From Ptychodera flava (taxonomy: Eukaryota > Hemichordata > Enteropneusta > Ptychoderidae), in assembly GCF_041260155.1 (NCBI RefSeq), contig NW_027248369.1, positions 1,019,560 to 1,083,559 of the forward strand: a stretch of DNA of 64,000 nt, in the 5' to 3' direction. Of the stretch, positions 3,250 to 53,351 are shown one piece after another (position 1 is the stretch's first letter; each line of letters starts with the position of its first letter). Made by a program: the position numbers and the translations under genes. The notes under the pieces were generated by a model. That model was not told the DNA's origin. It searched no databases and was given only the letters and a program-made list of their open reading frames with translations.

Positions 3250-6200
3250 ATGTGACATAGCTGTTTTTGTTTTCACCTGTCAGGTGTTATTATGATGTAA
3301 TTTAAATCACTCAATTTCTTATCAATTAGGTATGGCCCAAAGTAACGAGCATGGAGTGGTTTGCCAGGAATTGGAAGTAGAACAAGAACTTTTTGACCTG
3401 GTTCAAACTTCCGTTTTGAGGTGCTTTTATCATATTTGATTTCATTGACTGCTGAGATGACTCAAGATTTTCTCTGGCTAATTCACATGCTTTAGAGAGT
3501 TTTGTACGAAAATCCGACACATATTGCAAAATATTCAGACAATCATCATCGTCTGATAGGAATTTCTCTTAACGAGCTTAAGTGGGCCACGGACTGTATG
3601 TCCAAATATAAGCTCAATTGGCTAAAACCAAGAGACTCTTGAATTGACTCTCTAACGGCAAAGAGCAAAAAATGAATTCCTTCATCCCACTGCTTCTCTG
3701 TGTCAAAACAGTAGGTCCTAATCATGTTTTTCAAAGTTTGATGAAATCGCTCAAGAGCACCCTGACTTTCTGGATGATAGGCGGATGACCTATACTGTTT
3801 AATGCCTAGCTGATCCATTACTTGTTGAAAAATACCAGACATAAAGTTGGAGCCTTGATCGGACTGGACACTTTAGGGAGGCCGAATAAAGTGAAAAATT
3901 TGACTAAAGCTCTCACTATAGTCTTTGTCTTTATATTTCTCAGTGGTATGGCTTCGGGGAACCGAGTTGATGTACACATAATTGTCAACATGTACTCATT
4001 TCCTGATCTTGTTTTTGGTAGGGGCCCAACACAGTCTATTAGTATCCTACTAAATGGTTCTTGAAATGCAGGAATTGGCTGTAAAGGGGCCTTTGGAATG
4101 GTCTGATTTGGCTTTCCTACCATTTGACATGTGTGACAAGTTTTACAGAAATGTGTTACATCCTGCCTGAGAATTTTATGATAAGTTTTCCTTACTCCCG
4201 AATGACCAGCCCAGGGCGTTTCATGGGCCAGGCGCAATATTTCAGCACGATAGGGCTTTGGAACCACAATTTTTGATGTTTTATAGCCCAATCGTCATCA
4301 ACCAAAACATCTGGAGGTCTCCATTTACGCATGAGAATACCAGATTTTGTATAATAGGAAACAGAGTTATCTGAAGTTTTACCTTCATCATCTACCCTGT
4401 CAAACAAAGACAAAATATCTGGGTCTTTGTGTTGTTCTGCAATGAGATTTGATCTAGAAAATGTCTGACTTTGGTCAGCAGAAGTTTTACTGGAAGTTTC
4501 AAATCCACGAGGGATAACGGAATGATCCGTGTCAAACACCTGACTGAGAAAGGTGTCATTTAAGTCAACATATGTGACATTATTTTTGAGAGTGTTTTGA
4601 TTCTCAGAAGTTTTCTTTGACATGGCTCAAGTAATAGCACATGAAGGAAATATCAGGTATCTCTTGTTCAATTGGCTCTGGATCCTGATCTAAACTATGA
4701 TTATCAGTCACAAGTGGATTAGTAATGACCTTGTCCCCAGCAAGGTCGTTTCCAAGAAGAAGGTGAATCCCTTCAAAAGGCAAAAAAGGCCTAATACCTA
4801 AAGTCACAGGTCCAGAAACAAAGTCCGAAGACAAATAGACATTATGAAGAGAAACAGGAATGTAGTCATTACAATCTACTCCCTTAATAAGAACCTTAGA
4901 ACCTGAAAATGACTTTACAGAAAACGGCAGGGTATCTGCCAACAAAAGAGACTGGGACGCCCTGGTATCTCTTAAAATTTTGACAGGGGTAGCGGAAGAG
5001 AAATCACTAGAAAGTGATATAAAACCATTATGAATAAATGGCTCGAAAATACCCATAATGCTATCTTGAGAAGAATTGACCTTGACCTCATTAATTGGGG
5101 ATGAGAGGGGTTTAACCTCAGAAAATGTGTTGCACACATTATTAGACTCTAATTGAGTTGATGAAGAAATAAAGCCGGTGGGCTTAGATCCACTTTGACC
5201 ACTTTGACCTTCACGTTTTCTTTTCAATTTGAAACAATCTGACATTAAATGGCCGTCTTTCTTACAATAATTACAAGAAAGTGTACCAAACTGTTTGTCA
5301 GAAGGATATTGAGACTTGGGATCTGATGATGTGGGAGTGTTACTTGAACTCTGTGAACTGCTGTCATTTGATTTTCTACTCTCCTTTGAGAAATTCTTGG
5401 ATGAAAAGGAGGAGTTAAATTTACCTGCGTTGTTTCTGTTTGAAACGGACTGGGATGGTTTGCTGAGAAAGGAAGATTTGTGGGTCAATGAATAATCATC
5501 GGCCAAACGTGCAGCAACCTCCAATGTATCTGCCTTTTGTTCATTGATAAACATCTTGATGTCACTCCGGATGCACCTTTTAAATTCCTCAATCAAAACA
5601 AGTTGTCGTATTTGTCATAATTCTGACTGACCTTTTCAGAAGAACACCAACGATCAAACAGTTGTTCTTTTGTTCGAGCAAATTCAACATAAGTTTGATC
5701 CTCGCCTTCTCACAATCCCTAAATTTCTGACGGTAAGCTTCAGGCACCAATTCATAGCCCTTGAGAATTAATTCCTTCACAGAATCATAATTTGAAGCCT
5801 GCTCTACTGACAACTGAATGTAAATTTCTCTGGCTTTACCCACCAAAGCACTCTGCAAAAGCATAGACCAGGACTCCTTAGGCCAATTCAGACTCTGAGC
5901 AATTTCTCAAAATGAAGGAAATATTTATCAACATCCTTTTCTTGGAAAGGGGGAACTAACCTGAAATGCTTAGTGATGTCAAACTTGTCTGAAGGGAAGA
6001 ATTTTCCTGACTGTCCAAGCTCTAAACGTTTTATTTCTACCTGTAATCGCTGTTCTTCTAATCGCAATTCTTTTTCTTTCTGTCTTTCTTCCATTTCTAA
6101 CTGCATTGTATTTTTTTCTTTTCTAATGCCTGTCTCTCTTTTCTATTTGTAATTCTTTGTCTTTCATTTGTAATTCTTTTTCTCTCTGTCTTTCTTCCAT

Positions 6201-15789: not shown

Positions 15790-18700
15790 TAATTGACTCG
15801 TCTATTTCTCCTGGTGAATGGTTTTCTCACTTTAAGCAGTTGGGTAATTTTTCTTGTAAAGAAACTGATAACGTTTCTAAACGTATTCTATCTGAATTAA
15901 CGAAAATGGAAGCGGCCAATGGATATGATGTGAATTTTATTCTTAATTCCATATTTACAGAATCAGAAATATTAAAGCTTTAGGTAAATTAAATCGGAGA
16001 AATCCCCAGATGTCGATTGTATTTTGAATGAAATTCTAAAATATGGTGGTTCTTCCATACTTACTCCATTGTGTTCATTATTCAATGTCATCCTTAGATC
16101 AGGAACATTTCCAAATGCTTGGACAAAAATATATTTGTCCCTGTGTTCAAATCAGGTGATACATGTGATCCGTCAAATTACAGACTCTGAGGGATTTCTA
16201 TAATTAGTTGCCTTACAAATATGTTTACCTCAGAACTCTATGTTGAATAATAGGCTTATGAACGTTCTTAATAGCAATGATATTCTTTCGCCATTTTAGT
16301 CTAGTTTCAGAGCAAAGAGGAGAACTGCAGATAATCTAAGTTTGCGTTCTGCTATCGATCAGCATATCTATGCAAAATTTTATCAGTCAAGCTATAGTCC
16401 CAGTCGTAGGTACCTTTCACTGGAAACAATGCTTGATATACTTTCATTATATTTACATATATTTACGTAATATGGAACGAGATGCTAATTGCATACGTAG
16501 CGTATATCTTTGTATATGGAACATTCCAATACGTTGATATGCGTAGCGTATATCTATGCAGATCATGAGTATACGTAATGCAGATCTTTGCACAGCAAGT
16601 ATACACTGTAGTTTTGCATGTTATTAGTATACATACGTGTATTCTGACCGTATTTGACACATGTACAGAATCAGTATATGTGTATATATTGTTCTATATC
16701 AAGCATCTTGCCAAGTGTTGATTGTTGTTTTGTAGATTTTCAGAAAGCATTTGACAGGGTTTGGCGTACAGGTTTACTTGGGAAACTACAGAAATATGGC
16801 ATTAATGGTAATTTTTGTAGCTTAATAAAGTCCATGTACGACAACATTAAGTATTGTGTGAAAAGTAACAACTGCTTTACTGAAGAATTTGACTCCAAGT
16901 TAGGAGTTAAGCAAGGGTGTAATTTAAGTCCAACTTTGTTTAATATTTCATACATGATCTTCCCAGTACATTTGGTTTTCAGTGAGGACTGTGCTATCAA
17001 ACTTGGTAAACTCCTTATCAATTGTCTAATGTATGCTGATGATCTTTTATTGATTTCAGAATCTGAAACAGGCTTACAAAGCGGCCTAGCTAAACTTCAT
17101 AGATTTTGTCGTGAATGAAAATTACCTATTAACATAAAGAAAACGAAAGTTGTTGTGTTCGACAAAAGTAATCATCTTGTAAAAGAAGTTACACTCACAT
17201 ACAATGGAGTGACTCTTGACTTAGTGAAAGAGTATTGTTACGTTGGTTTTGTCATTACCCAAAATGGTAAATTTAAAGGTAATTTTCACAATCTTAAATT
17301 GAAGGCAATGAAAGCTCTTTTCAGCCTTCGTAAGGGCCTTTAAACTGTTAACTTTCTGTACTAAGTTGCATTATCACTCTTTGGTAGTTTAACTGTACCT
17401 ATTATAGACATATGGCTTTGAAGTATTGGGACATGAAATCAATGACAAGTGTAACTTTTTCAACGATGTTAGTATATTATCTTATTATATATATTTATCC
17501 TTGGTGTCTATCTATCTATCTATCTATCTAGAAAATTTGTATAGCGCCTAATATCCAAAGTTAAACAATGCTCAGTGGCGCTTAGAGTTACAATGAAAAT
17601 GCTCTCTGGAAGATGTAAGTTTTTAAGCGTCTTTTGAAAATGTTGACATTAGGAGAGGTTTTTATGTCCAGGGGCAAAGAGTTCCAAAGGACAGGAGCTG
17701 CTACAGAGAAGGAGCGGCGACCATAGGTAGTCAGATTCCATCTAGGTGTGTGCAGAAGGCATTTATCAGATGAACGAAGAACACGTGATGAGGCACAAGT
17801 GTTCTTAAATTCCTGAGATATTGTGGAGCTTGTCCATTTAGGGCTTTGTAAATAATCAGCAAAAGTTTGTATACAATGCGATGATGTACTGGAAGCTAGT
17901 GAAGTTGCATAAGTATGGGGGTATGTGGTCAGATTTCCTGGTCTTTGTAACAATTCTAGCTGCTGTGTTTTGGGCACGTTGTAACCGCTGTAATTGTGTA
18001 TCGGGCAAGCCTTTAAACATGCACCGTCTGATGGTGTTGTTGGAGAGCTAGGTAGATATCCAATTCAGTTTATGGTGATAAAGCACATGCTTAAACACTG
18101 GCATAGATTGGTTTTATCAGATGACATCTTACTGAGATCTGCTTATACATCCAGGTTGAATTCAGATTTGTCTAATTATTTACAAGCATATTTAACTCTT
18201 ACAGTGGGAGCGATATATGGTCTTGTGTTTGCAATATCAATTCCACAGTTAATAATGTATATGATAGTTTATGTGAAATGTATGAACAAATATGGCTGAG
18301 AAACATTCATAATAATACAAGGAAGTGTTGAATGCAGAGGAATAAGCTCCGAACTAACATACTTTTTAAGACAAAATTTGAATTTTAAAGTTACCTGATA
18401 GATATAAGATCTTTTACCTATAGGAGGTGGCTGACAAAACTAAGCATTTCGGATCGTAACCTGCAAATAGAACTGGGTAGAAGTTCAATTCAAAAAGTTC
18501 CTGCAAATGAAAGATTCTGCAAATATTATAAGTCTTTAGTTGAGGATGAATTTCACTTTGTAATTGAATGTCCAAAATATAGAACTTATCGAGGTAGTAT
18601 ATTTTCATCCACAGGTTTGTATAATCCTGGCTTTCGTGATTTGAATGACAGAGAAAAGTTCATGTATATGTACTCACAAAGATAAACTACCTCTTGCTAA

Positions 18701-29059: not shown

Positions 29060-31600
29060 ATGCTCAAGGCCATACAGGGACACAGGGGGCGCTTCTTGGA
29101 GAGCTTTCTCTCAACATGGGCTCCTAATTTATCGGCTATTATACGAGAAATCAATTAGATTGTCTATGAATTTTGGTAGCATGAAAACGTAAAGGTACTG
29201 TGATTGCATTGGTGAAACTCTGGACGAAATGGGCATAACTGTACAGTTAGAGAAGATTTTTTGGAAATGGTTCGAGAAAAGAGGAGGAAACTGTGGCCGA
29301 TTTTGGACCAAGCAATTAAAGATGGCAAACGAGCAATAATGCGCTATGACAAAGTAATCCTTGAAGGTGATATCTACGTGTATGATACTAAAGCTCAGTA
29401 AGTTGTACAGTTGAAGAAAAGATAGCGAGGGGGCCAAGGCGATAGAAACATCAACTCAAACCAAACAAGACTGCATGACCATCCTCAGAATACAACGACA
29501 TAACTTATGAGAAACTTAGCGATAATGATTTTGGTAATTTTATCAATATTTTATGTTGGAATATCAATAACTTGAAGACGAAATGGTCAAATCCATATTT
29601 TATAACGTATCTTAAGCAATTCCGTATTGTATGCCTCACAGAAACATGGGCTACAGCTTCAGATCAATTTTCATTACATGGGTTTAAATCAATTTCTAAA
29701 GTTCGTTCTAAAAGATCTCACTTCGGAAGATATTCTGGTGGTTTGTTGCTGTTATATTCAAATGATTATGTTTTGTCTATTTCAGAATTGTCTAGTCAAT
29801 CTGATGATGTAATGTGGGTTAGAATGATAACAGTAGATGATATCTTACTTTTAATAGGTGTTGTTTATATCTCAACAGAAGGTTCATTCATCTTATGCTG
29901 ACGATTCTACGGTTGAGATGATATGAGAATTATGCTATGTATACACAACGTTTTTCCGATCATCATTGTTTTATGTGTGGGATTTTAATGCACGAACAGC
30001 AACGGATATAGATCATTTGTATTTTGATAATATGACCTTATTACCATGTGATGAATACCATGCAACAGACGATATCTTGCATTTAAGGAATTCATGTGAT
30101 GCAACGGTAATCGTTATGGGCGATGTCTGTTACAGTTTTGTAAGACATCTGGATTGAGAATCATGAATGATCGTTTTTCAGATGAGAGTGGTCACTTTAC
30201 ATGCATAAAAAGTGCAGGTGCCAGTGTAGTAGATTACCTACTGTGTAATTCGACTGCCATAAAAGAGATTGTGCATTTTTTATTGATGATAGAATAGAAT
30301 CTGATCATCAACCATTGGTTTTTCGTTTATGTCAGAATAGTACTGTAACTTTAAATTCTTACACTAACTCTACAAATGTACATGTTGTTAATGATCACAG
30401 TGTCTCTGCTTTAACGAAAATAGGTTGGAGTGATGATGAAAGTTTTGAGTTTTATCATAATGATTATTGGAATAGTACAAGAGCTGACAGATTTTACGAA
30501 AAATGTTTCAGATGCACTTGTAAATAATGATTACGACTCCAGTCTTGCTGTACTTCTCGAAATGCTGTATACAGCTGCATCTAGAATGAAAGTGGAATGT
30601 AATGTTGCCAAGTATAAAGGTATTTATTTACGTAAAAGTTGGTATGATAAAGAATATGTCGACGCCAAAGTCAAAGCGACAAAAGCATCGAACGAATTCA
30701 GACGTACTAGATCAAAAGATTCATTGGCAGTTTTAAAAATGTGTAAGTCTAACTACAGCAAACTGTTGTTAATTAAAAGGAAAGTACACGAAAGAAATGA
30801 AAAGAAGAAATTAATGAATGCTGTACGGAGTCTAATTCTAAAAGATTCTGGTCCCTCCTGAAAATAATTCGGGGCCCTTCACCTAACATTTCAACAGACT
30901 GGTTCTCACATTTCCATGGTTTGTTTAACTTCGTGAATGATTTCTGGTGAAAGTGATGAATTTTATTGTGAGATTAAAAATATTGTAGATGAGTTTGATC
31001 CCCTATTTGGTGAGAGTGGTTGTGATCATATTGATTGTAGTCTGCTTGATGAAGAAATTACATTTGATGAAGTTGAAAAAGTATTTTGAATTTAAAATGT
31101 GGAAATGCACCAGGTTATGATGGTATTCCAGCGGAATTACCTAAAAACTCTCCTAGAAAGTTCAAAGAATTACTTGTTGTTTGTTGAATAAATTGTTTCT
31201 TTGCAGTTATTTTTCGTCAGAGTGGGCTTTAGGTTCGATAGTTCCATTGCATAAAAAGGGAGACCCTGACAATGTAAATAATTACCGTGGTATAACTCTT
31301 ATTTCTTTACTTGGAAAGTGCTTTCATCAATTTTGTACAGTAGAGTACAGATATGGGTTGAGAAAAATTGTCCCTTTCTGAAAACTAAGCTTGTTTTCGT
31401 AAGGGTTATAGTTGTATTCATAATATGTTTATACTTGAGACAATTATTAATCGATATTTTTTTTTCGAAGTCGTTTGTAAGTGCCTTTGTTGACTTTGAG
31501 AAGGCCTTCGATCGTATGAATCATTTTTTGTTTGATGAAGTATGGCCTTCATGGTAATTTCTATAGAACACTTAAATCTATATACAAACACATCCGTGCA
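29060..31600 (+). mobile_element. Decayed LINE, copy 1
   Basis: The ORF1 C-terminal end is at 29260-29403 (DFLEMVREKRRKLWPIL, then GKRAIMRYDKVILEGD), a transposase_22-like domain. ORF2 follows with an APE endonuclease: ILCWNINNLKTKW at 29545, LTETWA near 29634, and a SDHQP motif near 30300. RT pieces follow: KKGDPDNVNNYRGITLIS near 31255 and FVDFEKAFDRMNH near 31485. Frames are interrupted several times, and the RT stops before its catalytic YADD box, so the copy is 3'-incomplete. The clade looks L1/Nimb-like but is not settled. Confidence 0.8.
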
Positions 31601-32129: not shown

Positions 32130-35100
32130 ACATCCATGCTATACGGTAGTTTCATTGGTTTAACTAGTACGTTCTGAATTTTGTATGTGGGAAACGAATA
32201 GAAAACTGAATTTATAATTTTATAGTTTTCAAGTGATCAGAGATGCGAAAAGATGAAACGATCGCAACTTCCACAGTAAGGGGTTTATACAATACAGGTA
32301 CAAGGGAGCTGCAACCTTCTAGTAAAATCTCAAAAAAACTTCAAGATTTTAAAGAATTTTGCAGATTTTTTACACGTTTGTTTTCTGGTGTTTCTTTATT
32401 TTTCAAACTACTCTGTAGAAGTTTCCGTATCTGTTTTCTTTTAATTTTTTTATGTTTTTGACCACCCCCGCCAATATCTCCCTTACTACGATAGTTCGGT
32501 GAGCACGTTCGGCAGTGCTGCAGAAAGCGCGTTCTGTTCTGACAAAAGATTCACCGATATTTGTCACTGAAGATTTACCTCCTGTTGTTAGACAGGCTCG
32601 CAAGAAACTCATACCTTTCCTTGTCAAGGCTAGAGATGAAGGTAAACGAGCATTTCTATCGTATGATAAATTGCTTATTGACGGCAGAAAGTACAAACTT
32701 GATTCTGGAAGTAATGAGCTAACTCCTATCTAGTGGTGTGGCCAGGCTATCATCGCCAAAAATCGACAGAGTGTGAGTCAGTGTCAAGATGAACACTTAC
32801 ATGCAAGAACTGCTGAAAATACACATTCAATTACTGCTTGGAACGCCAGGGGTTTGAAAAAATACACAAATGACATCGGACTGAAACAGTATTTCTCTGC
32901 ATTTTCTATAGCTTGTATAACAGAAACTTGGGCAAGATCCAATGATGATTTTTGTGACTGGCTGCCAAACTACAAATGTTATTCGTCCTCGAGAAAACGT
33001 AAGGGAAATTATGGAAGATTTTCTGGTGGTGTGTGTATTTATGTTGCTAATTTTATTTCTCGTTTTGTAAGACGCATTTTCAAAGATAACGAGAACTCTG
33101 TGTTTTGTTCGTTAGCAGAAATGCTTTTAATACACCCCGTGATTTAATTGTGTGTGGCGTGTAGATCTCACCAGAGGGCGCCCAATTTATAGAGAGGGTG
33201 ATTAGATGGCATTATTCGTTTGGAAAATTGTGTTATGGACATTTGTTCTCGGTTTGAAAGTGTTGATTTTATATTTCTTGGCGACTTTAATGCTAGAGTT
33301 GGGGACTTGCAAGATTTGAAGATGAGCACTTACTGGTGATACGAATGCCACAGGTACTTCCCAGCCTGGCTATGAAATTGACCACTTTGATTTACCTCGA
33401 AAATCACGGGACAGTACTGTAAATAGATTTGGTCAATCCCTAATTGAATTCTGTTATAAACAACATGTACACATAGTAAACGGGCGTTTACCGGTGACAG
33501 GAAGGGGACTACACCTGCTATACAAATAACGGAGCAAGTTTGATTGATTATGTAATCATTAGCACGTCCTTGTTTCAATTCGTTGATGACTTCAGAGTTG
33601 AAACGTTAGACATTTCCGATCATTTACCTATTCAATGCTGCTTTTGTTTCCCAATGAGTATGACACTACAACTGACGGAGATATCAGTACAGATGTTATG
33701 CACTCAATGTATGGAAGAAATTTCGTTGGAATTCGCTTTTATCTGACACCTTCAAACACAAATTACAAGACGAAGGTTTTGAATTTTTGTATAGAATTTT
33801 CAGTCAAGCTGTTCAGGACAAGGATTTGAACAAAGCTGTAACGACTTTGACTGATATATTCACAAGAGCTGGGGAGGACATGATGACTCAAGTGGAAAGA
33901 GACGTACAACAGACATACCCTCTAACAAACCATGGTGGGACAAGGAGTGTTCTCGCGCTAGAGACCGGAAGTTCGAACTTTTAAATACATTTCGTAAATC
34001 AAATAAGGGAGAAGACTTAACAAAGTACTCTGATTCCAGAAAACTATTTAAAGAATTATGTAAAATGAAAGCGGAAAACTATAAGAAGAAACAACGGGAC
34101 ACTTTATTACATCACGCGAACGATCATACGAAATTCTGGAAGACAATTAAAGAAATAAGAAGCAATAAGTCGGTATCTACCGCTGATAACATCACAACAA
34201 ATGCATGGTTTGATTATTTTAACACGCTACTAAATAATTCAGTTGTTGTCCAGGATGCCGTTTTTGAACGGAAAATTGCCCTTGATTTAGCAGACCACGA
34301 TGCTTTTTGTGCTGCCTGCGACGATAATACTCCTTCGGACATTAACAGAGCTATTACTATCGGGGAAGTTTCGAAGTGTATCGACGCCTTACAGAACTCT
34401 AAGTCTCCTGATCCTGATGGACTTGTGAACGAAATGTTCAAGAACTGTAATGATGTCTTGAAACACTGTTTTTGTGAACTGTTTAATTTGATTCTTGCTT
34501 TAGGTGTATTCCCAGAGAGTTGGGGTAAAGGTATTATTTATCCCCTTCACAAAAAGGTAGTTTTACAGACGTCAACAATTTTCGTGGCATTTCCCTTTTA
34601 TCATGTATGAGCAAAATGTTTACTAAAATTATTAACGAGCGTCTGGTCAAATGGGTAGAGGAACAGCATATCATTGTTGAATCACAAGCTGGTTTCCGTA
34701 AGGGCTACAGTACGATTGACAATATCTTCACGTTACAGTCTATTGTACAAAAGTATCTTTCTCAAAGAAGAGGCCGCATGTACTGTTTATTTATAGATTT
34801 CTCTAAAGCCTTCGATCGGGTGACTCACAGGTACTTGTGGCATAGACTGATATCCTATGGCTTACATGGGAATGACTTAAAGTCCTTAGATCCATGTATA
34901 ATAACATCGAGTCAAGTGTTCTGTGTAATGGCGGACTAACCGATTATTTTAACTGTAATGTGGGAACCAGACAAGGGTGCATGCTCAGTCCTCTATTATT
35001 TAGTCTTTTTATCAACGAACTTGCGTCATATATGTATATAGAAAATGGGGGATTTCAATTAATTCGAACTTTGACAACGTTGGAATTCTCATGTTCGCTG

Positions 35101-36615: not shown

Positions 36616-37476
36616 TGTGACGTTTAGGGCCCCCGTAGACTAGGCATTTTTTGCCAAATGCTTTTGATGAATACAGTGATGTGTATCATTAATTGCTTGG
36701 TTTCCAACACATGTAACAAGCATCATTGTGATTAAAGAATTTTTTAAAATCCTAAAACTGATAGAAATGTATAACATGCCCCGACATGGGTGCAAATCAG
36801 TTCACTGATTTGAGTAGGAACACCAGGCGGGATAGCGAGCCGCGTGAACGATGTACTGACCGGTTTCCATCGTTACCCGATTCGGTGAAGCCCTACGCGT
36901 TTTTCGACGTCAAAGTAGATGCATAACGCTATATGCGCGCACTGCTATTTTGGTGCTGGTCGATTATGGTAAAATTGTTTGAGTACACCTTGTATGTAAC
37001 TAAATGTCACATAGGTTTAACTGTGAAGAGGCATGTAATAAATATTACTACCTGAATACATGGGTTTATGTGCCCTCGCTGCAGGAGACTCTTTGCTCTC
37101 CTAGCGTCGAGCAAATGGCCATCTGCTCTTTGACATATAAAGCCATGTATTTAGACAATAATATACAATATCAATGCTTCGATTATTAAATCTATGAGTG
37201 GCAACTTGAAGCTGAATCTTTGTCTTGTTGTGAGCCGCCGCATGAAATCAAAGGGTAATGTGCATAATATCCCAAAATATCTATCAAGGGAAGACCCTTT
37301 ATAAGTACTTTTACTCATCATATCACAGAAGAAAAGTCCTTTATCGTCTAAATATATAAATTGTTGTGAAATACGGATATTGTTAATAAAATCAGAATGG
37401 TATTTGATCAGGGTTCAGCTTCCTTTCTGTTCTGAACTACTTGAAAAATCACTAAAACGGCCCGACACAGTAGTAT
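36616..37476. other. No feature recognised
   Basis: AT-rich DNA up to the TA target site of the transposon at 37479. Nothing coding is supported. Confidence 0.5.
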
Positions 37477-37478
37477 TA

Positions 37479-37720
37479 CAGCGAGCGCGAATAGAAACTG
37501 GACACCTAATTAGCAAAGTACCCAGCTGTATTGCGAGGCATATTGCTATTTCCCTTTGTAATTCGCCAGTGACTTTGTTAACTTGTCAGCGATATCGTTT
37601 TATGTTTCAGTCAGCTGCAGACACTTTGAGATGTTGCAATAAAGCTTATCTGGGTTTGAGTAATTCAGTATAGGGGTGGCTGCTTGTTGCTTGGTGGGAT
37701 TCAAAACGAGTGAAGATAAT
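37479..37720 (+). repeat. Left terminal inverted repeat of the transposon
   Basis: Matches the reverse complement of 43065-43307 with very few differences, beginning CAGCGAGCG next to a TA target. An open frame in each arm (AHIAISLCNSPVTLLTCQR) is a by-product of this identity and not a gene. Confidence 0.9.
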
Positions 37721-38673
37721 AATGATATTCAGGTGAATATCAGAAACTTCACTAAAAAATAAAGATATTTGTAAGCTACACTTGTGGTCTCATTTAGTGC
37801 TCTCTTGAATTTCAATAAAATCCCCTTTTGTTTGTGTCTACTTCTTGTATTGTGAATGAGTCAACTGTGGTTTCTTCCAAATAGAGTGGCTGGCGCAACA
37901 TTCGCGAGGTGAATGGCGGCAAAATTTTTATGTCCAGGCTCTCACATCTGGCCACATTCGTGGTATCCACGCAAACAACAATAAAGGAGTTTATGCTTGA
38001 GTCCAGGAGAAGTGATCATTTCAGCACAATTTTGTAACTTTTGAATTGCATAGAGAGTGCAACCGGCGATTGTGGAGGTAAAAAGAGATGCTGCGATGCG
38101 ATGCGCACCATGAAAGTTTTGTAGAGGTTTAACACAATATCCAGAATAACTGAATGCGTGCCTTCAGTAACACAGTCTCTCTTATTGAGGATCCGTATCA
38201 TGAATAAGTATAGCGTACGCGCACCTAAATTTTGCATTTTCTTACAGGTTTTAATGTCAAACCACAGTAAAAAGGGTCCATACATTTATATCGGTTATAG
38301 AGACAATTTACCCAGCTATACCCAGTGACTTTCCGCTTTCACACACGACCAAACGGCCGTCGGCAAGTCTCACCATTCCTTATCTGGAATAAACTATTTT
38401 GTGATTAGGTCGAACGCGTTTCCAGCGGCACCGTCTCTCAGGATAAAATCAATTTAGAAATACCACAAGTATTTTACCTAAGTGAAGACAATTATAACTT
38501 AGAAATGTAAGTGGAAATTGCACATTGACGTAATGTGATTTAATCCTTAAATTGACGCTAAATGTACTGAAGTCTAGTGCGGACGCCCCTCCAAAGAAAA
38601 TGCATCCGTCTCCGTTTTGTCACATGACACTAAATACTGTTGCATCTTTCAAATAAAACTTCAACTGACAGAG

Positions 38674-39675
38674 ATGTCGACCCGTCTCAATATCGATATG
38701 CGACTGAAAATTATTGATTTGTCTACGGCTGGAAACAGTGTGCGTCAGATCGCTGAACAGCTGAATACGCCAAAGTCTACGGTTCAGAACGTGTTAACCC
38801 TCTTTACCAGGACAGGTTCCGTTTTGCGGCAGAAGATACCTGGAGCTCCCCGATCAAAATGCTTGCCGGACGTAGTTGAATTTGTCGAATTTCTCAAATT
38901 CAAAAAAGCATCGATCACTGCCTCTGAGATACGGGCAGAACTCCTTCGTGAAAGCATTTGCACGGAAGAGACTCTCCCAGCATGCAGAACGATATACGAA
39001 ATTCTCAGGAGAGATCTGAATTACTCATACAAGAAGATACAAAGTATTCCTGCTGAACAGCTGACTGAACGGAATTTACAGAGGATTATGCTGTATATTG
39101 ATGCAGTCACCCAACTGGACCCTCTCAGCGTTCATTTTTTCGATGAGGCAGGCATCAAAAGGACAACCGCTAACAGACAATACGGGCATAGTTCAATAGG
39201 CCAGCGTGCGTTTGAAGTTCAGCGTTACACATCAGACGTGAATTTTACTTTAAACCTCCTTCACTGCGCGCGAGGAGTGAGTTACTTCAGTATTCTTGAC
39301 GGCCCTTCAAACGGATTAGAAATGGTGCACTTTTTCGAGGAGGCCCTAGAAATGGTAGATGACCAAGGTCAACAGATTTTATCACCAGGCGATACTGTGG
39401 TAATGGACAACTGTGGTTTCCACCACGGGCGCTTTGCAGAGACAAACTTGCGCCAACTACTGAATGACCGGAGAGTGGATCTGATATTTCAACCCCCTTA
39501 CAGTCCCGAAATGAATACGTGTGAACTTTGTTTTCGCTACGTGAAATGGTACCTTCAACAGCATGATATATTTGCTACGCAATTTACAGAAACTGCTATC
39601 ATAGACGGAGTTTCAGAAATTACACCGATAATGTCTCGGAATTTCTTTAGACTATGCGGCTTCCCGTTGTTTTGA
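38674..39675 (+). CDS. IS630/Tc1-type DDE transposase, 333 aa
   Basis: It should cut and paste its own element at TA sites. Residues 1-60 form a paired-like helix-turn-helix (STAGNSVRQIAEQLNTPKST), followed by a second HTH region. The catalytic core shows the first Asp in VHFFDEAG, the second in TVVMDNCGFHH, and the Glu in PPYSPEMNTCE. Counting gives 38 residues between the second Asp and the Glu, a DD38E-type spacing. The usual LNPIE context is MNTCE here. The frame is uninterrupted. I chose ATG 38674 (MSTRLNID) over an upstream in-frame start because the family begins close to the HTH. It lies about 1.2 kb inside the left terminal repeat and is convergent with the accessory frames. Confidence 0.9.
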   Translation: MSTRLNIDMRLKIIDLSTAGNSVRQIAEQLNTPKSTVQNVLTLFTRTGSVLRQKIPGAPRSKCLPDVVEFVEFLKFKKASITASEIRAELLRESICTEETLPACRTIYEILRRDLNYSYKKIQSIPAEQLTERNLQRIMLYIDAVTQLDPLSVHFFDEAGIKRTTANRQYGHSSIGQRAFEVQRYTSDVNFTLNLLHCARGVSYFSILDGPSNGLEMVHFFEEALEMVDDQGQQILSPGDTVVMDNCGFHHGRFAETNLRQLLNDRRVDLIFQPPYSPEMNTCELCFRYVKWYLQQHDIFATQFTETAIIDGVSEITPIMSRNFFRLCGFPLF

Positions 39676-40729
39676 CTCTGATCATTCATCGGCCTTGGGA
39701 CCGAGCATCACGCGAATGATTACTAATCAGCTGTACATGGCATGCAGTATTTTACACATGCGTTTATGTTTTTCTGTTGCTGTGGGCGCAAATTTGTACT
39801 CATTAACTCAGATTTGCCCACAAAAACTTACCAAATCACCTATCTATCTTTGAACTTTGTGACATTCTGATGGTCCCGTAATCAACCGAGCGGAATACAG
39901 CTGATCTGCGGACTTGAAGTCAGCTGGACTAATACATGTCAACGTTGTCAGAGTTTCTCTCACGCTCAAACTTTTCTTTAAACATAGGTTTGGATTATGT
40001 AGTTGTTTTCTAGATTGATATGCAAAACTGGCATGACACTGATGTTCCTAATCCATGTTTTGAAGCGTTCTCCTCGGCAATACTGAGACTTGTATCAAAC
40101 TACCGTTATACTCTGTAACGCGATATAGAATAAACGTTGTTGACAAAAGTGAGACTTAGTTGTGCACCTGTATTTCGTTACACTCAATACATCCACTGGT
40201 TTTCACATTCAGTATTACAACACATCAATTGAATATTCTTGTAAAATGCAGTATTTTAATAACAAAGGAAAAATGTCATCCTAAGACATGGCACATCTGA
40301 AAGGAAAAGTTTGTTGTAGGTAAATATAATCTTCATGAATAAACTCAATACAATTGGCCATGGGTTTTTTTAAATAACAAATAGAACATTTTTTTTGGAA
40401 ACATAATAATTTAACAGCAATGCAATGTGAAACGTTTGGGTACGCTTATTATGATGAAAAGCTCAGATGGAATTATTTACGATGTAAATAAGCTTTGTAT
40501 CAAACGGCCAAAATACGACGAATTTACCGGTAGAACAGCAAAAGTAGTCTGTTGTGCACACTCGCTGACAAGATATGTACCGGAAGTAGCTGAATCACAT
40601 GAGATAATGAACGTGGAGTGCAGTATTTTTATGCACTTTTTCAGCAGTCCAAGAATGCCAAAATATAAATGCATACTGCTTGACAAGTCCGCGAGATCAT
40701 GTACCGGTAAATCCAAACTTCAATGAGAG
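39676..40729. other. Gap between convergent transposon genes
   Basis: Probably the two 3' untranslated regions. A plus-strand frame at 40427-40726 reads fairly like protein (KVVCCAHSLTRYVPEV) but has no start context or family match that I can support. Confidence 0.45.
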
Positions 40730-41529
40730 TCATGTGTCTGTCGCGTTCTTCTTCGACGTCCCAGTTTGTAGGCCTAATAGCAAAGCAGCTTCGAAGAGTG
40801 CATCCATATTTGACATGTGTTGTTCAGCATGACGATCTGTTGCTATCGGGGATGGCCGGTGGCAGCTGGTGTCGGTAGAAATTGCTGCTGCGGCCGTGAC
40901 TTGTTGAGTTGGTGGTGCCCTAGCTTGAATATCTGTACTACCAGATATTTGACGTAACCCGGCGTCAATCACATGAGTTGGCATATTTTCGCGCGTTTCC
41001 GAAAGCATCTCTGATGACGATATGTTGTGCGGTCGAGATAGAGAGTCTACAGGTGTAAACTGCCCGCTCGTTCTGTTTCCTGTATCTTGGAATGTAGCGA
41101 CTTGGTACGACGGAGATAATCCCATTCCATAATATGGGAAATTTGGGCCTTGAGTTGACGATACGTGTTGGGAGGATAAAATGGATGGCGAAACTGTTGG
41201 GCATATACATGGTCAGGCAAAAGTTGTGCCGGTGCGCGTGTGTAACCTGGATCTGGAGTTAACGAGGGCTGGAAATGGAAAGGATAAATTGGCGGAGGAT
41301 AATAAAACATGTCGCGGTAACTTTCCCGGCGATTTGCGCGAGCGATACCCTTCAGCTGATGAGGTGTAATGTCATCATCTTCCGACTGCGAAGATTCGAC
41401 GTTCTCTGCTTCACGATCTGCACAACGCCCAATCCTCTTACGGCATTTCCGAATCCTTTCTTGCTTGTGATGTCCACTGGAGTTAGCGCACTCCGTATCG
41501 GAGAGGTCCGAAGTTTGATGACTTTTCAT
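40730..41529 (-). CDS. Transposon accessory frame 3: Pro/Tyr-rich protein, one frame break
   Basis: From ATG 41529 the frame reads MKSHQTSDLSDTECANSSG, a basic stretch (KCRKRIGRCADRE), an acidic stretch (SSQSEDDD) and a Pro/Tyr-rich part (MFYYPPPIYPFHFQP). Around CCC at 41172-41170 the natural reading moves to the next frame: one more C would give HPFYPPQHVSSTQGPN and on to MGLSPSYQV, ending SNMDALFEAALLLGLQ at a stop at 40732-40730. The total would be about 267 aa. The C-terminal helix looks amphipathic. No domain was recognised. It lies 166 bp downstream of the PB1-containing frame on the same strand, with a possible intron between them. Confidence 0.6.
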
Positions 41530-41695
41530 TGTTTGCACCGGAGACGCTTTGTGAAAAACGAAATGAAATAAAAGGAGATTAAAATAATCAATAAACAAGC
41601 AAATAATACATTTATACATATTATGAACGACTTTATGTCGCACTGCTCACTACATTCATGAAGTACAATTTATTGTTGAATTCAACTCAAAATGA

Positions 41696-42817
41696 CTATA
41701 TATGTTTACTTACCATTGATAAGAATATCGTATATTTTTGTACAACTTTCCTTTCCTCTGTCGAGCATCCGCTGTATTCACTGTTCATGGAGCGCAACTG
41801 TTCTTTGATGGCCCTGGAAAATATTGTACGATCATTTTCGGCGTTAGACAGTGCGGGAAGGTTCTTTACTTGGTTATTGAAGGCTTTCCTCAGAATGCTT
41901 AGGTCACGTTGAAGGTCAGTTTTGCCTGTCGTTGTTCGACGATTGTATTTATCAGGGAAGGCAGCGAGGAGCCGTGGGGTGATGGTTGTTGTGAAAACAC
42001 TGGTAGATCGACTTTGAAAGTCATGCAACTGCTTTAGTTCGTTTTCTTTCGATGTTATTACTTTTGTTAGTTGGCTTTCCCGCTCCTTTAGTTTTTTTAG
42101 ACGTGCCATGTAGTCATGTTTGTGCTTATCCGATCTTCCGCAGAAAATGTAACCTCTGCAAGGCTCACCGAGTGGACAGCCCTCGCTGTTCCTATTGCCG
42201 GTAGCCCTGTGTCCGCGGCGGTGACAAATGTTGCAAGTACTTCTGAGATTAGTTCCCACGGGTTTGGCTTCGGTAACTACTCTGTCCATTTCTTGCTTCT
42301 GTGCTATCACTGCCACTTTTTCACTTTTGAGAAATTCTATTTCCTTACACATCTCTTCCTCTTTCTTATCTTTCCATCGTTTGCTTTTCGACTTGACGGT
42401 CTCTAACTCATGATCAAGTTGTAGTTGTTGTCTTGCTCGTATCCGTCTTTCGCCATCTCCGCCTGCACTGTTGTCATTACTAGACTCATCCCGATCTCTT
42501 TTTCGGCCTTGTAAAACCATAGCTGGTGAACACCCTTCGCTGACCATAAGTTTTAATCGAACGAAGTCCGCATTATGAACTGGTGCAGCGCATCGGTACA
42601 TATCTTGAAGATCATATTCATTATCACTGAGAGTGATGACAGTCTTCTCATCGTTGACGTACTGTAACTGAAAAGCTACATTCTTGAGCGATGGTATGTT
42701 TTGAGTGATGAAAGACGTCAATTGGGAATATTGTTTGAGTTGTTCTTTGGCGTACACCTGACGGGTTCTGCCGCGGTAAAGTATTTGAAATTGGTACATA
42801 ATGTTAACTGTGTTCAT
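41696..42817 (-). CDS. Transposon accessory protein: PB1-like domain, coiled coil and zinc motif
   Basis: This frame is open for 373 residues from ATG 42817. Residues 10-95 look like a PB1 domain: a basic strand (FQILYRGRTRQVY) and an acidic OPCA-like loop (YVNDEKTVITLSDNEYDL). A nuclear-signal-like KRDRDES region and a long charged coiled coil follow. Next comes a Cys/His cluster, CNICHRRGHRATGN then GCPLGEPCRGYIFCG and KHKHD, probably binding zinc. A second helical region ends the protein. A good splice donor (ATG|GTAAGT, 41714/41713) lies just before the stop, so the true C-terminus may be in another exon; the nearest acceptor (41546) does not keep the frame of the next set. Similar Cys/His proteins are, from memory, common uncharacterised proteins in marine invertebrates. 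A partner of the transposase is an inference. Confidence 0.75.
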   Translation of the reverse strand: MNTVNIMYQFQILYRGRTRQVYAKEQLKQYSQLTSFITQNIPSLKNVAFQLQYVNDEKTVITLSDNEYDLQDMYRCAAPVHNADFVRLKLMVSEGCSPAMVLQGRKRDRDESSNDNSAGGDGERRIRARQQLQLDHELETVKSKSKRWKDKKEEEMCKEIEFLKSEKVAVIAQKQEMDRVVTEAKPVGTNLRSTCNICHRRGHRATGNRNSEGCPLGEPCRGYIFCGRSDKHKHDYMARLKKLKERESQLTKVITSKENELKQLHDFQSRSTSVFTTTITPRLLAAFPDKYNRRTTTGKTDLQRDLSILRKAFNNQVKNLPALSNAENDRTIFSRAIKEQLRSMNSEYSGCSTEERKVVQKYTIFLSMVSKHI

Positions 42818-43064
42818 TTGAAACTTCACTTCGCGAGGGTGAAACCGCTCAGCTAACTACCTGGAAGTTTTGTGCCGCCAAGAAGTCGTGTGACCACTCA
42901 TTGGCCGTCCTCTATGGAAGATACCACTCATTCACAAACTTGCAACGAACATCATGCACATTTTATCGAAATTCGATGAGCAGTAAATGAGACCAAAAGT
43001 GTAGTTTGAAGAAATATTTTTATTTATCAGTGAAGTTTCACTCCAGTAGTGTATGATTCGGATA

Positions 43065-43307
43065 TTTTATCTTCACTCGTTTTGAATCCCACCAAGCAAC
43101 AAGCAGCCACCCCTATACTGAATTACTCAAACCCAGATAAGCTTTATTGCAACATCTCAAAGTGTCTGCAGCTGACTGTAACATAAAACGATATCGCTGA
43201 CAAGTTAACAAAGTCACTGGCGAATTACAAAGGGATATAGCAATATGCCTCGCAATACAGCTGGGTACTTTGCTAATTAGGTGTCCAGTTTCTATTCGCG
43301 CTCGCTG
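43065..43307 (-). repeat. Right terminal inverted repeat of the transposon
   Basis: Inverse of 37479-37720, ending ctcgctg followed by the TA target at 43308-43309. Confidence 0.9.
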
Positions 43308-43421
43308 TAACTGTCCTTTTCGCTCTCCATGATCCAGTATACATAGCATGGAAAAGTTATTGAACCATAGCGGAAATGCGCCTGCGCCTGTTCCATTCCT
43401 GCCGCTTGCTGTGCTGGCAAT

Positions 43422-43592
43422 CGGAATTCCGCGAAAGGAAATTACGTATTTGCATTGTTATTCTGACATCAAATTTCCACGAAACGAAACGAAGGGCTCT
43501 GGAGCACTCTTAATAGCGTTTGCTGACACCCGGGAAATAAAGTTGCTTCAGTCCACAATATCTGGCGTAGAATTTAACAAAGATAACCGAAA
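43422..43592 (+). promoter_or_regulatory. Copy of the cGAS-like gene promoter (orphan)
   Basis: CGGAATTCCG at 43422-43431, an NF-kB-like palindrome, is followed by gaaaggaaattacg and, at 43481-43494, GAAACGAAACGAAG, which fits the GAAANNGAAA form of IRF/ISRE sites. The rest, including tatctggcgtag and agataaccgaaaatgggtgct, closely matches the minus-strand promoter at 51150-50977. Binding is inferred from motif shape only. Confidence 0.6.
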
Positions 43593-43613
43593 ATGGGTGC
43601 TACAAAATTAAAG
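43593..43613 (+). pseudogene. Orphan first coding exon (MGATKLK) of a cGAS-like paralogue
   Basis: Seven codons from ATG 43593 are followed by a gttagt splice donor. They parallel MGASKSK at 50976-50956, with the same phase-0 donor and the same upstream sequence. No exon like the second exon of the complete gene was found on the plus strand downstream in this window, so the copy seems to lack its enzyme body. The second residue, Gly, and the Ser/Thr-Lys context fit N-myristoylation in both copies. Confidence 0.6.
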
Positions 43614-43852
43614 GTTAGTTCACTTCAAGGAAAAATGCTTCACAGGTCATGACTTAAGCCTGTCATTATAAGTAGCAGCGGTACTGTAGCTCGAGCTGCT
43701 ATACTACATCTAATGATGACGTGCTCAGCCTCCGTCATGTCATTTGCTGCTGCTCAGTGCTTTCCTGTTAATGTTCGTCAAGTTTCGACAAAACACTGTT
43801 ACATAGTAGCCTTTATACCATATGGACCCACACTTCAGGCAGCCATTCATAT

Positions 43853-48195: not shown

Positions 48196-50976
48196 CTATA
48201 AACGTTGTGAAATTCTGATGAACTCGTCCTCACCCTTCCTGACAATGCCTTGCAATCGCCGTGTGATGTTTTCATGGAGAACAGTATTTTGGACAAAATG
48301 GTCAATTAGGTTGTGACTTTGCATGAAGTACATCGGTAAATTTCCATTTTGCAGATATTGGAGTAGGTCATTCAGAAATGTGGTTAAATAATCACCAGTG
48401 TCTGTCCAGTATCCTGGATATTTATCCAGCATATGGAGAAACACTGTCTTTAAATAATAGGAATCTAATCTTGCCAATGGCGCATCTTTCTTACAAAATG
48501 CTTTTGCTATCTTTAGAACCTTCCTTTTCTCTTCACCAGCTCTATAAATTTTTGCCTTCTCTTGATCAGAGAAGGACACTCTCCATTTTCCGATGGCGCC
48601 CTCTGAAGTGTCATACTTGTTTGGCTTAGCAACATAGTACCTGAAACACAACAAGTGAATTTTACATTAGTGTTTAAAAAAGTTGGTTAAGAAGTCTCCA
48701 GCTGATGACTTATGCAGAGTTTTGCATTTACAAAGCACCCTAATATGTTTGCAACTAGCACAGATCAAAATGAGCTGAGGATCCCTAAGAAGCTGCTTAA
48801 TAATCTTGCAGGACAATTTTCATAACAACTACCAAATAAATTAGGGTTTGCATGGAAGGTACCAGTACTCAGACAGCCTGGAAACTCCCCGCCAATCTCA
48901 AACATGTTTTTTTGTTTCTGTATTCCAATTTAAGCTACCGGTATATGTTGTGAATGGCAGAAATTGTATGGAGCAATTTATAGAGCTGTATTAGATTCAC
49001 AATATGCTGTAAGTCTCTGACCATCATATCTTTTATTGCAACAGATCACCCAATTATTGATAATGAACTTGAACTTTAAACCCCGGGTTCCAGATTGCCT
49101 TGTCAACCTTGTATGCATTTAAATGTATTTAATTTGTCTCTCAGCTTAGAGGAAAAGCCAAAAATTAGGCAAATAATTTCATAACTGATTTAATTACCTC
49201 ATGATTAGCATTTGCAGTCAAAATGAGCGGTTGGAAATTTCTCCATTTGAAAACTTTCATAATACCATAATATTTCTGGTTTACCTGTCTCCGTCCTTGA
49301 CAGCTGGGACCAAATCAATCTTCAAGTACTGTTGACTGTAATCAGTGTCTCTGTACTTTGCCATGACTTTCATGGCTGGCCCATCTTGTCCAATCCACAC
49401 TTCCATGTCATCGAAACCAATAGAATTGACAGCTCTTTGCAGAACACTATGGAAACCATTCATAACTTTTTGTGAATGCAATATATAGCCATCTCCTCTC
49501 AGTTCAGAAAATGGAGAACTTTCTTCTGCTGAACATAAAAATCTATATGCTGTTTTATCCTCGCTGGAAGATGATCCAAAAAGGGTAAATAGAAGGAAAG
49601 TCCCCAACTTGACCTTTTGAGGTGATGGCTCATATCAAAGGGCAGCATAATATCAAATTCATCTGGTTTACAGACTTTGAGATCTTCATACGAACTTCCG
49701 GTATACTTCCAGTTCTGGTCCAAGGCCACTTTGTACCTTTCTCTCAGCAATGTTGTAAGTTTGGGTTTCAAAGTGCGCTCAATTTTCTCAACCACGGTCT
49801 TTGCTCTTTCCATACGGCTCTCGGAAATCTCTACATCATTGGCATAAAACTCATCCATGGCTGTATGCAACTATTAAAATTAGATAAAAGTGTACAAATA
49901 ATACAATAATATGAAAAATATAAATGCCTGCTAAATTGCTCTTTTGATAAAAAGAAAATGAGTTGTCCATGTAACATGAACAAACTCTTTATAAGAATAT
50001 TTAAATATGCTCACAGAAACTTCTCTCTTGTTTCAGTGTTGCAGCTGGGAATTTTAAATCAGGGGACACTGTATCCCATTACTGCTTACTTTGGGCGACA
50101 TTTTGCACATTTTGGGGACAACATGCGTCAGTTGTCTATACAATTTTGCATTATTTTGTAACAAATTAGTTGCACTGAATAAAATTCAAGCTAACAGGAA
50201 CGTGTCACTATGCTGGAATTTCAGGCATTTGTAGTAGTGTACCATATCTGCTATCAATTAGAGTTCAGACGGGCAAAAGTCAAGCAACTTATGATATCAA
50301 ATGCAGCGTTTTAATTACTTTGAATCATAGCTAGCTCTGAAAGCATGTACTAGTGAAATCCTCAAAATAATTATGCAAAACGAAGGTCATCGTCAGACAC
50401 ATATTGTACTTGTAGACTACACCCAACACAGTTGGTTCATGAGTGCACCGAGGTGACTCGCAGTACTCAAGAATGCGGGACAACATATTCCAATCACGAT
50501 TCCTCCAGCTCCCCCCCCCCCCCCCCCCCCCCCGCTTTATTTGCGAATGCAGCCTAGGCCTTCCGTCGTCGGATTTGTTGGGATTCCTGGAAGGATTTGT
50601 CTCAACTGGACATAAGAGGGGTCAGGGTGCTTCGTTACCTTTCGGACTTGAGAAACTTCAAATTGAGATAAATATGAACATTGTGTCGAACGGACAAATC
50701 TACAGAACAAGTTGTGTGTGAAATGTATGGGGTGAGAACACCGCCAAAATTATCTTGAAATCTTAAATGATGAGATAGGCCTAAGTTTAAATAAAGATTT
50801 CAAGATAATTTTGGCGGTGTTCTCACCCCATAGAAATGTGGGTATGGTAATTAGGCTAAGCCTACACTGATTGTCGAAACTGGAGTATGAGCAGCAGCCA
50901 CGGACTTATAGAGGCTGCAGCTACCTCATTATAAAATCATGACATGTGAGCTTACCTTTGATTTTGAAGCACCCAT
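48196..50976 (-). CDS. cGAS-like receptor (Mab-21-domain nucleotidyltransferase), 3 exons
   Basis: This enzyme family makes cyclic dinucleotides from nucleotides on sensing nucleic acid and signals through STING. Exon 1 (50976-50956) encodes MGASKSK with a GTAAGC donor. Exon 2 (49870-49285) begins LHTAMDEFYANDVEI and carries the active site: TGSSYEDLKVCKPDEFDIML aligns with the human cGAS GS motif and E-F-D pair, and YLKIDLVPAV supplies the third acidic residue. Exon 3 (48640-48196, phase-2 junction) has KWRVSFSDQEK, LDSYYLKTVFLHM and ends RISQRL. Total is about 350 aa, the size of the cGAS core. The vertebrate zinc ribbon is missing, as in invertebrate cGLRs. The frame slips by one base at the AAAA run (49618-49615 on the plus strand); one more A reads HHLKKVKLGTF. 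That is either an assembly error or a disabling change. The Gly-2 start suggests N-myristoylation and membrane anchoring. Confidence 0.85.
50490..50700 (+). repeat. Dispersed repeat (partner of 15.40-15.62 kb) with C-run
   Basis: Same repeat as at 15400. A run of about 23 C lies at 50511-50533. It sits in the first intron of the cGAS-like gene. Confidence 0.65.
50726..50832. mobile_element. 107-bp hairpin element in cGAS-like intron 1
   Basis: tatggggtgagaacaccgcc is the inverse of ggcggtgttctcaccccata, and the arms reach about 40 bp. GAAATG flanks both sides (50720-50725 and 50833-50838), a shorter duplication than at the other hairpins. Confidence 0.8.
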
Positions 50977-51150: not shown

Positions 51151-51504
51151 ACTCTGCCATGTCTCTGTCTGTAGTGAGGGGATGGTGGCAAAAACGGAGA
51201 CCTAGTATGGAAATCCGGTTGGGTGGTTCTCTGCCCGGCCAGCTGAACTGGCCTCACTTGAACTCACCACTGAACAGCGCAGCCAGCGGCACAACTAGGG
51301 CAGGCAAACAGTTTGTATCGATCCGAGCTCTCTATCTCTGGTCGATGGTCGATCTGTAAATGTGAGATGCGGCGCCCCCCCCCCCCCCCCGAAAAAAACC
51401 AAAACAAACAAACAAGAGTATAGGTGTATGTCAGGCAAAAAGGCGCAATTCCATGCAAAGTACCGCAGAGCGTACTGGAAAGATAACCCTGTTGTGCCTG
51501 GCCC
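51151..51504. other. No gene seen
   Basis: Upstream of the cGAS-like promoter. A C-run of about 15 bases lies near 51376-51390. No coding domain was recognised. Confidence 0.5.
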
Positions 51505-53351
51505 GTATTTAATGATTTTTTTTTTAAAGCTGTGCAGAATAGAAAGGAAGCTCAACCATTTTATCTTGATATTGTGACATATGCGAGATCACATCTCTGT
51601 TTGGCTATGTTTTTCTAAAAGGATTCTCACACAAATTCCTTTGTCGAAGATTCAAAATAACGACAACAGTAGAATAACATATTCTTTCATTTCTGCAAGT
51701 AAAAGGCGCAATGCCTATGTGGTGAGCATGTTTTCTCCGTTGGCTGCGCTGTGCTGAGGGCAACAAACTTTTCTTAACTAGTATACAAAGCAATATGCTG
51801 GAACATGCATACACTTTAATAGCTGTACTACTACTACTGTTATTAGGTGAGATTAAAAGTCCAAGAGAGAGGGGATGGGGACATCAAGTGTAGCCTGGAC
51901 AGTTCACACGATAAACTTTGCAATTTTCTGTTGATTGGAGGGGTCAAATTTTGTCAAACGTCTACAATTTTGGCCAGATACCTAGGTAAACATTATGTAT
52001 TTTCTTTTTAAGGTTATACATGCCAGAGTGAATAACGGGGATCTAAAGAAAACATTCTGTCAACAATGTCTTGGTCCAAAGTCGAAAAGCGTGGATTAAA
52101 ATCATTTTAAATATGTCTACGTATCTGACCTGAGGCAGTGCACCCCCCACCCCCCCCTACCCCCCGCATTAAAACTCTTTGGAGATACTGACATGATAAA
52201 ACATAAAAGACCCCTGGCGGTAAATGTTTGCCTGGACAAGGGGGATTTTTCGCTCTGCATTGATTGCAATGATTATGATTTGCTTTCACCTGAAAGTTCC
52301 ACTCCCAACCAGAATCAACAAAAGAACAATGAAATGCAGTCATGTTGATGATCTTACAATATCAGTAAGACTTATCGATGATTTTTGCTTTCATGATGTT
52401 GTTGTTGTTGTTGTTGAAAGTACATGTACAAGATCACGATACAGTGGGATCCTGTTAGAAAATTGTATCCCTATGAGGTAAGCCTCCATGTATAGAAAGC
52501 ATATTTGAAGATGTCATGATACAATTCAACAAGGTGATGCTGGGGAACTTGGACTGTAGCCTTCTGATTCCTATATTTGCAATGACAATGGTATTGTAAA
52601 CAATATATGAAGAACAACAAATCTATCTGAGTGTCGTTCAGTTTTGTTTACCACCGATGATGGCAAAGGCTGTTTCTGCGCTCAATGGACATGTCACAAT
52701 GGATGAGAGAACAGAAGCAGACTTTATTTGTAAGGCTGCCTAGGGCTGCATAGCTGGTACCAGTTTATGATTTTCTGTCACTCAGTCCGGGTACTGCTCT
52801 GGATGTTACTCTTGTGTTCTATGTCCATTGTCACCTCTGTTGGCGAGGAGGTTGGTAGGAATTTTGGGGTTTTGGTGAAGTTAGTCAAACTTTGGCAATG
52901 GTTTTTATAATACAGAGTACACAGTCAAGGAGCTAGTGGAGCAACGAAAATATAGAAAATGTTGGCTGAACAGCTTACAAGTATAATTTATGAACAAAGA
53001 GGAGGCCAACACACATTTAAACTGACCAATGTACTTTTTTAACACTCAAACACCATGCATGTTTTGGTCCACATCCATTGTTTACAATGGTGAGAGTGGA
53101 CCTGTTTACCGGGGACTAGGGTACAGGTTAAATTATAATCAATAACACGTCAGTCCAAATGTCATTTAAATGTGAAAAGTAAAATGTCACAATTTTTATT
53201 TAAAATAATGAGAAAACAATGACCACATATCTGACAATTTATGTCATTAAAAAATTCTGAAGAATTGTCAATTGGATTTGATATTCACTGACTGTGTATT
53301 ACAATTGCACAAGATGTGCCATTGTAATGCTAACAAACAAGACTTCGGTTG

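Follow-up and report, generated by a model that had tools for sequence, protein, structure and literature searches.

A Pax-like IS630/Tc1/mariner-group transposon in an animal genome with a convergent second gene, probably for an accessory protein

IS630/Tc1/mariner transposases serve as a model of self-sufficient transposition. The locus described here lies at positions 37479 to 43307 of a 64,000-nucleotide stretch of Ptychodera flava DNA (contig NW_027248369.1), a stretch called the window below. The transposon found there is real, and it is unusual because its relatives normally carry a transposase alone. On balance, it is best explained as an IS630/Tc1/mariner-group cut-and-paste transposon, complete or nearly so, that resides in an animal and has two convergent genes, the second of which probably encodes an accessory protein. 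If this group has such a member in animals, one could ask what the second protein adds, in parallel to the RAG transposon.

Published accounts describe the Tc1/mariner group as typically having a single open reading frame (ORF) (PMC8533490, PMC12242761). The original prediction took one gene per element as the norm, and this stands as the usual rule, with exceptions: three ORFs occur in each of the ciliate elements TBE and Tec, so extra genes are known in the superfamily (PMC7325037, PMC12242761).

Ends of the element and its insertion site

Both ends of the element can be read directly. CAGCGAGCGCG opens it at 37479, and an inverted copy closes it at 43307.

37477..37478, left TA target-site duplication, read from sequence
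37479..43307, whole transposon, 5,829 bp
37479..37719, + strand, left terminal inverted repeat (TIR), starting CAGCGAGCGCG; 241 bp with 2 mismatches against the inverse of 43067-43307
37720..37821, + strand, degenerate inner continuation of the left TIR (gapped alignment)
42960..43066, - strand, degenerate inner continuation of the right TIR (gapped alignment)
43067..43307, - strand, right TIR, 241 bp
43308..43309, right TA target-site duplication, read from sequence
51467..51557, - strand, paralogous repeat resembling an empty site (flanks joined, single TA), 72.5% identity

The inverted arms (37476-37719 and 43067-43310) measure 244 nt with the flanking TTA/TAA and 241 bp without it, and inside each TIR about 100 bp more is still recognisably inverted, though diverged and gapped. 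The element thus has the IS630/Tc1/mariner hallmark of a TA duplication with terminal inverted repeats, and the clean TA-flanked repeats of about 240 bp that had been claimed for it are borne out at 241 bp, with 2 mismatches and a TA on both sides. Within the TIR, Sleeping-Beauty-like internal repeats (IR/DR) were sought and none rose above shuffles. TIR identity was rejected as a clock on general grounds, because cut-and-paste transposition leaves it un-reset.

The flanks are consistent with insertion into a dispersed repeat, duplicating the TA only. The empty-site-like repeat at 51557-51467 crosses the junction, with about 67 nt on the left and a short support of about 17 nt on the right, and its likeness score of 24.5 exceeds the highest value among 500 shuffles, which is 18. 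In addition, the right flank at 43421-43623 is 79% identical to a dispersed repeat about 7.5 kb away in inverse orientation (51151-50946). The repeat in the left flank (37396-37448) has two more inverse copies, at 18878-18828 and 51557-51521, which are 81-84% identical over 53 and 37 nt.

The transposase and its place in the superfamily

The transposase gene reads inward from the left TIR, from an ATG at 38674 to a stop codon at 39673-39675.

38674..39675, + strand, DDE transposase, 333 aa; Pfam DDE_3 3.5e-18, PAX 6.5e-13; NCBIfam IS630 115.8 bits
40129..40134, + strand, candidate polyadenylation signal AATAAA of the transposase gene, by motif only

A further AATAAA lies at 40338 (+), and the - strand has only a variant signal, at 40260. 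The catalytic triad is D157, D245 and E284, with 87 residues between the two aspartates and 38 between D245 and E284, exactly the intact DDE transposase and second spacing first noticed. Ahead of it, a Pax-type paired domain spans approximately residues 8-112 (Pfam PAX 49.2 bits, profile positions 21-125 of 125) and includes GAPR (G-x-P-R) at residues 57-60, GRPR-like by eye only. By sequence, the closest solved relatives are Pax-8, Pax-6, Paired and Pax-5 (E 9e-9 to 4e-8), followed by the first subdomain of Sleeping Beauty (6e-4). In control searches with the PAX family, Sleeping Beauty scores 22.9 bits, barely above the cut-off of 22, and one of five bacterial IS630 proteins reaches 28.4 bits, the other four having no listing at E 1. 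The HTH_Tnp_Tc3_2 family, which scores 77 bits in Sleeping Beauty, has no match in the transposase.

Two criteria for a finer assignment were tried and rejected. The NCBIfam IS630 score of 115.8 bits exceeds the cut-off of 100 and is not decisive for IS630 over Tc1, because Sleeping Beauty passes too (134 bits; Mos1 scores 78.8 and the five IS630 proteins 168.8-217.7). Over its full length, the transposase shares 23-29% of its residues with the five IS630 proteins, 20% with Sleeping Beauty and 16% with Mos1. Assignment to IS630 by identity alone was dropped because a small unrooted tree with long branches joins the transposase to Sleeping Beauty and Mos1 (support 0.96) and keeps all five IS630 proteins separate. 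The five had been picked as good matches out of 797 plasmid records, of which 20 were listed and eight retrieved, and the two eukaryotic members are an arbitrary choice. Because identity and tree conflict and the comparators are selective or arbitrary, the transposase is placed only within the IS630/Tc1/mariner group. The earlier label of Tc1/IS630 class therefore survives at group level; a plain Tc1 label does not, given the Pax-type DNA-binding domain and the 20% identity to Sleeping Beauty.

The TIR of the element starts with CAG, a Tc1-like trait. Sleeping Beauty shares the TA duplication, the combination of paired and DDE domains and the grouping in the tree, yet it differs in its low identity, in its HTH_Tnp_Tc3_2 match and in the IR/DR arrangement that was not seen in the TIR here. 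Bacterial IS630 transposases resemble the protein in a full-length collinear match at the identities given above, a shared DDE_3 domain, a similar C-terminal end and a TA target (PMC7325037). Unlike it, the five compared have four residues fewer between the second Asp and the Glu, only one of them reaches the PAX cut-off (28.4 against 49.2 bits), and the tree separates them all.

Among eukaryotic elements, DD38E/Intruder has the same 38-residue spacing, TIRs of up to 272 bp and a transposase of 341-379 aa, close to the 333 aa found here, whereas it is 1.5-1.7 kb long with one ORF and the present element has 5,829 bp and a second long frame (PMC7731502). Intruder, compared by description only, is close to Tc1 (PMC7731502), and the transposase here has 20% identity to Sleeping Beauty yet groups with it in the tree. 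TBE and Tec likewise belong to the Tc1/mariner group and encode additional proteins: a zinc-finger protein is among those of TBE, and Tec combines long TIRs with one ORF on the complement strand (PMC7325037, PMC12242761). They differ in being DD34E elements of ciliate hosts, whereas this element is DD38E in animal-type surroundings; moreover, the 57-kDa TBE protein is a zinc-finger/kinase rather than a PB1 protein, and the second ORF of Tec is a recombinase (PMC7325037, PMC12242761).

Relatives were also sought in viral contigs, bacterial genomes, phages and plasmids, collections without animal sequences, so blanks say little. Plasmids gave 797 records matching the transposase, all below 60% identity, and phages gave three weak and partial ones (27-39% identity). 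In bacterial genomes, a relaxed transposase motif occurred at 75 loci. Of these, 40 gave a tblastn match at E 0.001, the strongest with 46.6 bits, where the best plasmid IS630 reached 95.5. In viral contigs, six stretches fit the transposase pattern and none was confirmed, while the lineage motif had no match and its relaxed form one.

The second gene and its possible origins

The second gene lies on the opposite strand and reads inward from the right TIR, converging on the transposase gene. By coordinates, gene and tail together fill about 70% of the element's right half.

41714..42817, - strand, first coding exon of the second gene, 368 codons; Pfam PB1 above cut-off
41547..41713, - strand, probable intron (predicted only), donor ATG/GTAAGT, acceptor TTTTTCACAAAG/CG after a pyrimidine tract
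41050..41546, - strand, Pro-rich/acidic continuation, frame A; preferred by codon usage from about 41550 and probably coding only to about 41.2 kb
40733..41212, - strand, Pro/Ser-rich tail in another frame, favoured by codon usage at about 41050-40740

The PB1 frame runs from an ATG at 42817 to the probable donor at 41714, within a stop-to-stop frame of 386 codons (42856-41696). This is far beyond chance, because none of 1000 Markov-1 sequences of the element's length reaches 386 codons; their longest stop-free run is 240. When codon usage is trained on the transposase alone, the PB1 frame ranks top of six (0.099, next 0.071). The PB1 domain occupies approximately residues 10-81 and scores 25.4 bits in a 371-aa stretch and 28.5 bits in the first 99 residues (cut-off 23.6), with no match in any of five shuffles. 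Residues 195-234 hold nine cysteines and histidines (C195, C198, H199, H203, C214, C220, C226, H232 and H234) with the spacing C-x2-C-H-x3-H-x10-C-x5-C-x5-C-x5-H-x-H, a cluster for which there is no Pfam family above cut-off and which no NCBIfam family covers. An opposite-strand PB1-like domain with a Cys/His cluster had been proposed from the letters alone, and the profile scores and the nine residues agree with it.

On a rival account, that of capture, the PB1/zinc gene would be a host gene, or a fragment of one, acquired by a single copy through transduplication, and the transposase alone would suffice. Tc1/mariner elements are usually single-gene (PMC8533490, PMC12242761), and a plant precedent exists in MUGB, a transposon-derived protein with PB1 whose likely origin is given as capture (PMC8616336); in addition, no related element has been demonstrated. 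Against this stand a PB1 frame that is long, intact and convergent from the right TIR, and a search of the window (tblastn, E 1) that found no paralogue of the PB1 gene. Capture is rather unlikely, though it is the strongest of the rivals. Among the papers listed, judged by titles and the beginnings of abstracts, no animal transposon with PB1 appeared, with Repbase and closed papers outside the scope of that survey.

Relatives of the PB1 protein were also sought in the non-animal collections. It had no match at any of 90 loci compared and none in phages or plasmids at E 1, and neither the four stretches in viral contigs nor the 18 in bacterial genomes were confirmed. Zinc-motif patterns gave 0 and 6 matches; the six were put down to chance, since tblastn with the PB1 protein reached no better than E 0.14 against them.

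The Pro-rich part was originally counted as a third gene. Its open frames on the - strand comprise 199 codons (41646-41047) and 160 codons (41212-40730), lengths that are borderline (11 of 1000 random sequences) and unremarkable (88 of 1000), respectively; both rank top of six by transposase-trained codon usage (0.074 and 0.043). Training on the transposase and the PB1 frame supports frame A at about 41550-41330 and a different frame at about 41050-40740, with one tie. Frame A has no Pfam family above cut-off and no NCBIfam match. An intron, decay or an error may account for the shift of frame near 41.2-41.1 kb; no classical slippery heptamer was seen there, by eye only.

The PB1 frame and the Pro-rich part are likely one spliced gene, with the Pro-rich part as its downstream exon or exons. 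The donor ATG/GTAAGT at 41714/41713 matches 8 of 9 consensus positions, the PB1 frame stops five codons later, and a pyrimidine-rich acceptor precedes the Pro-rich frame. An independent Pro-rich gene, which would make three genes in all, is unlikely. This arrangement, judged separately and compatible with an accessory role, draws on the frame's own ATG at 41529-41527, just past the proposed acceptor, and on the strongest donor being out of frame with that acceptor: the donor is in phase 0, whereas phase 1 is required by the acceptor at 41547. This acceptor would fit a weak donor lying four bases further on, other acceptors in phase 0 would fit the strong donor, and the modest lengths of the Pro-rich frames argue against independence. 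Of the three-gene claim, opposite-strand Pro-rich coding stands, and a separate third gene is weakened by the donor and the stop five codons on.

It is highly improbable that the PB1 gene is part of a different element nested in a plain transposon. In its favour stands the element's length, 5.8 kb in a group where DD38E/Intruder measures 1.5-1.7 kb (PMC7731502), yet a repeat search of 37479-43307 found no repeat above 22 nt apart from the TIRs with their inner continuation, and a self-comparison of the element shows the TIRs only.

A possible two-protein system and its surroundings

Under the favoured explanation, an element-borne second gene with a probable accessory role, the paired domain would bind the 241-bp TIRs and the DDE domain would cut at the ends and rejoin at TA, as in the superfamily. 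Each TIR region would drive the gene reading inward from it, as the anatomy suggests. Less certainly, the second gene, probably spliced onto the Pro-rich tail, would encode a transposon accessory protein that may self-assemble through PB1 and the helices flanking its Cys/His cluster, while the cluster may hold DNA or the transposase. By analogy, such a protein could help assemble the transposase complex on the long ends, much as RAG2-like or TBE second proteins accompany transposases. The transposase superfamily and the accessory protein of RAG-like (RAGL) transposons are unrelated to those of this element. RAGL transposons share with it a transposase gene and an accessory gene in convergent order (PMC7204232).

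Several results weigh against this explanation. Structure prediction does not confirm PB1, because the weak model of the first 99 residues, folded without relatives, reaches a predicted local distance difference test (pLDDT) value of 65 (strand/helix order E H E E H E), its best PDB fold matches, none better than E 0.014, are DNA polymerase little-finger domains, and the best 50 of 516 include no PB1 entry. PDB sequence searches likewise returned no PB1 structure (0 matches in one case, four weak matches in another, none of them PB1). The proposed structural check of residues 10-95 and the cluster thus did not confirm the PB1 fold. Long helices (121-183 and 229-286) flank the cluster in a whole-protein model with a mean pLDDT of 50. 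Beyond PB1, no family scored above cut-off in the second protein, in a Pfam scan of the element that took in four frames and left out the shorter ones. The margins in codon-usage values are small, the reading frame of the Pro-rich tail is interrupted near 41.1-41.2 kb, and a search of the two presumed promoter regions gave no TATA-like hexamer. A single copy is known, from the window: the suggested copy-number check, made within these 64 kb, saw no second copy, only two weak DNA matches of 31 and 26 nt (E 0.31). Finally, no relative carrying the same gene pair appeared in the viral, bacterial, phage or plasmid collections.

A bolder proposal is tentative and somewhat doubtful. It sees an undescribed animal lineage of the IS630/Tc1 group, in which a Pax-like transposase depends on a convergent PB1/zinc assembly partner in the manner of RAG1/RAG2, and which is a living relative of the source element of Pax genes. 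It would be a two-protein system within a superfamily regarded as working with a single protein. The strongly Pax-like DNA-binding region is also relevant to how the paired domain arose from a transposase. Likeness to Pax is in itself nothing new, because oyster and acorn worm transposases with a PAIRED-like region have already served as outgroup for Pax trees (PMC4901127).

The surroundings of the element contain other genes and repeats. A fragment of a Mab-21 C-terminal domain at 48199-48666 on the - strand (Pfam 7e-16) points to an animal genome. Pieces of retrotransposons of the long interspersed nuclear element (LINE) type lie on the + strand at 16648-17115, 29479-29898 and 34529-34936, comprising two reverse transcriptase matches and one weak endonuclease below the Pfam cut-off. 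At 3821-5614 on the - strand, an integrase zinc-binding domain beside a frame with a CCHC-like motif (by eye) is probably a decayed long terminal repeat (LTR) element. Two overlapping frames of 165 and 131 aa, one of them acidic-tailed, occupy 620-1479 on the - strand, with no Pfam family at E 0.001.

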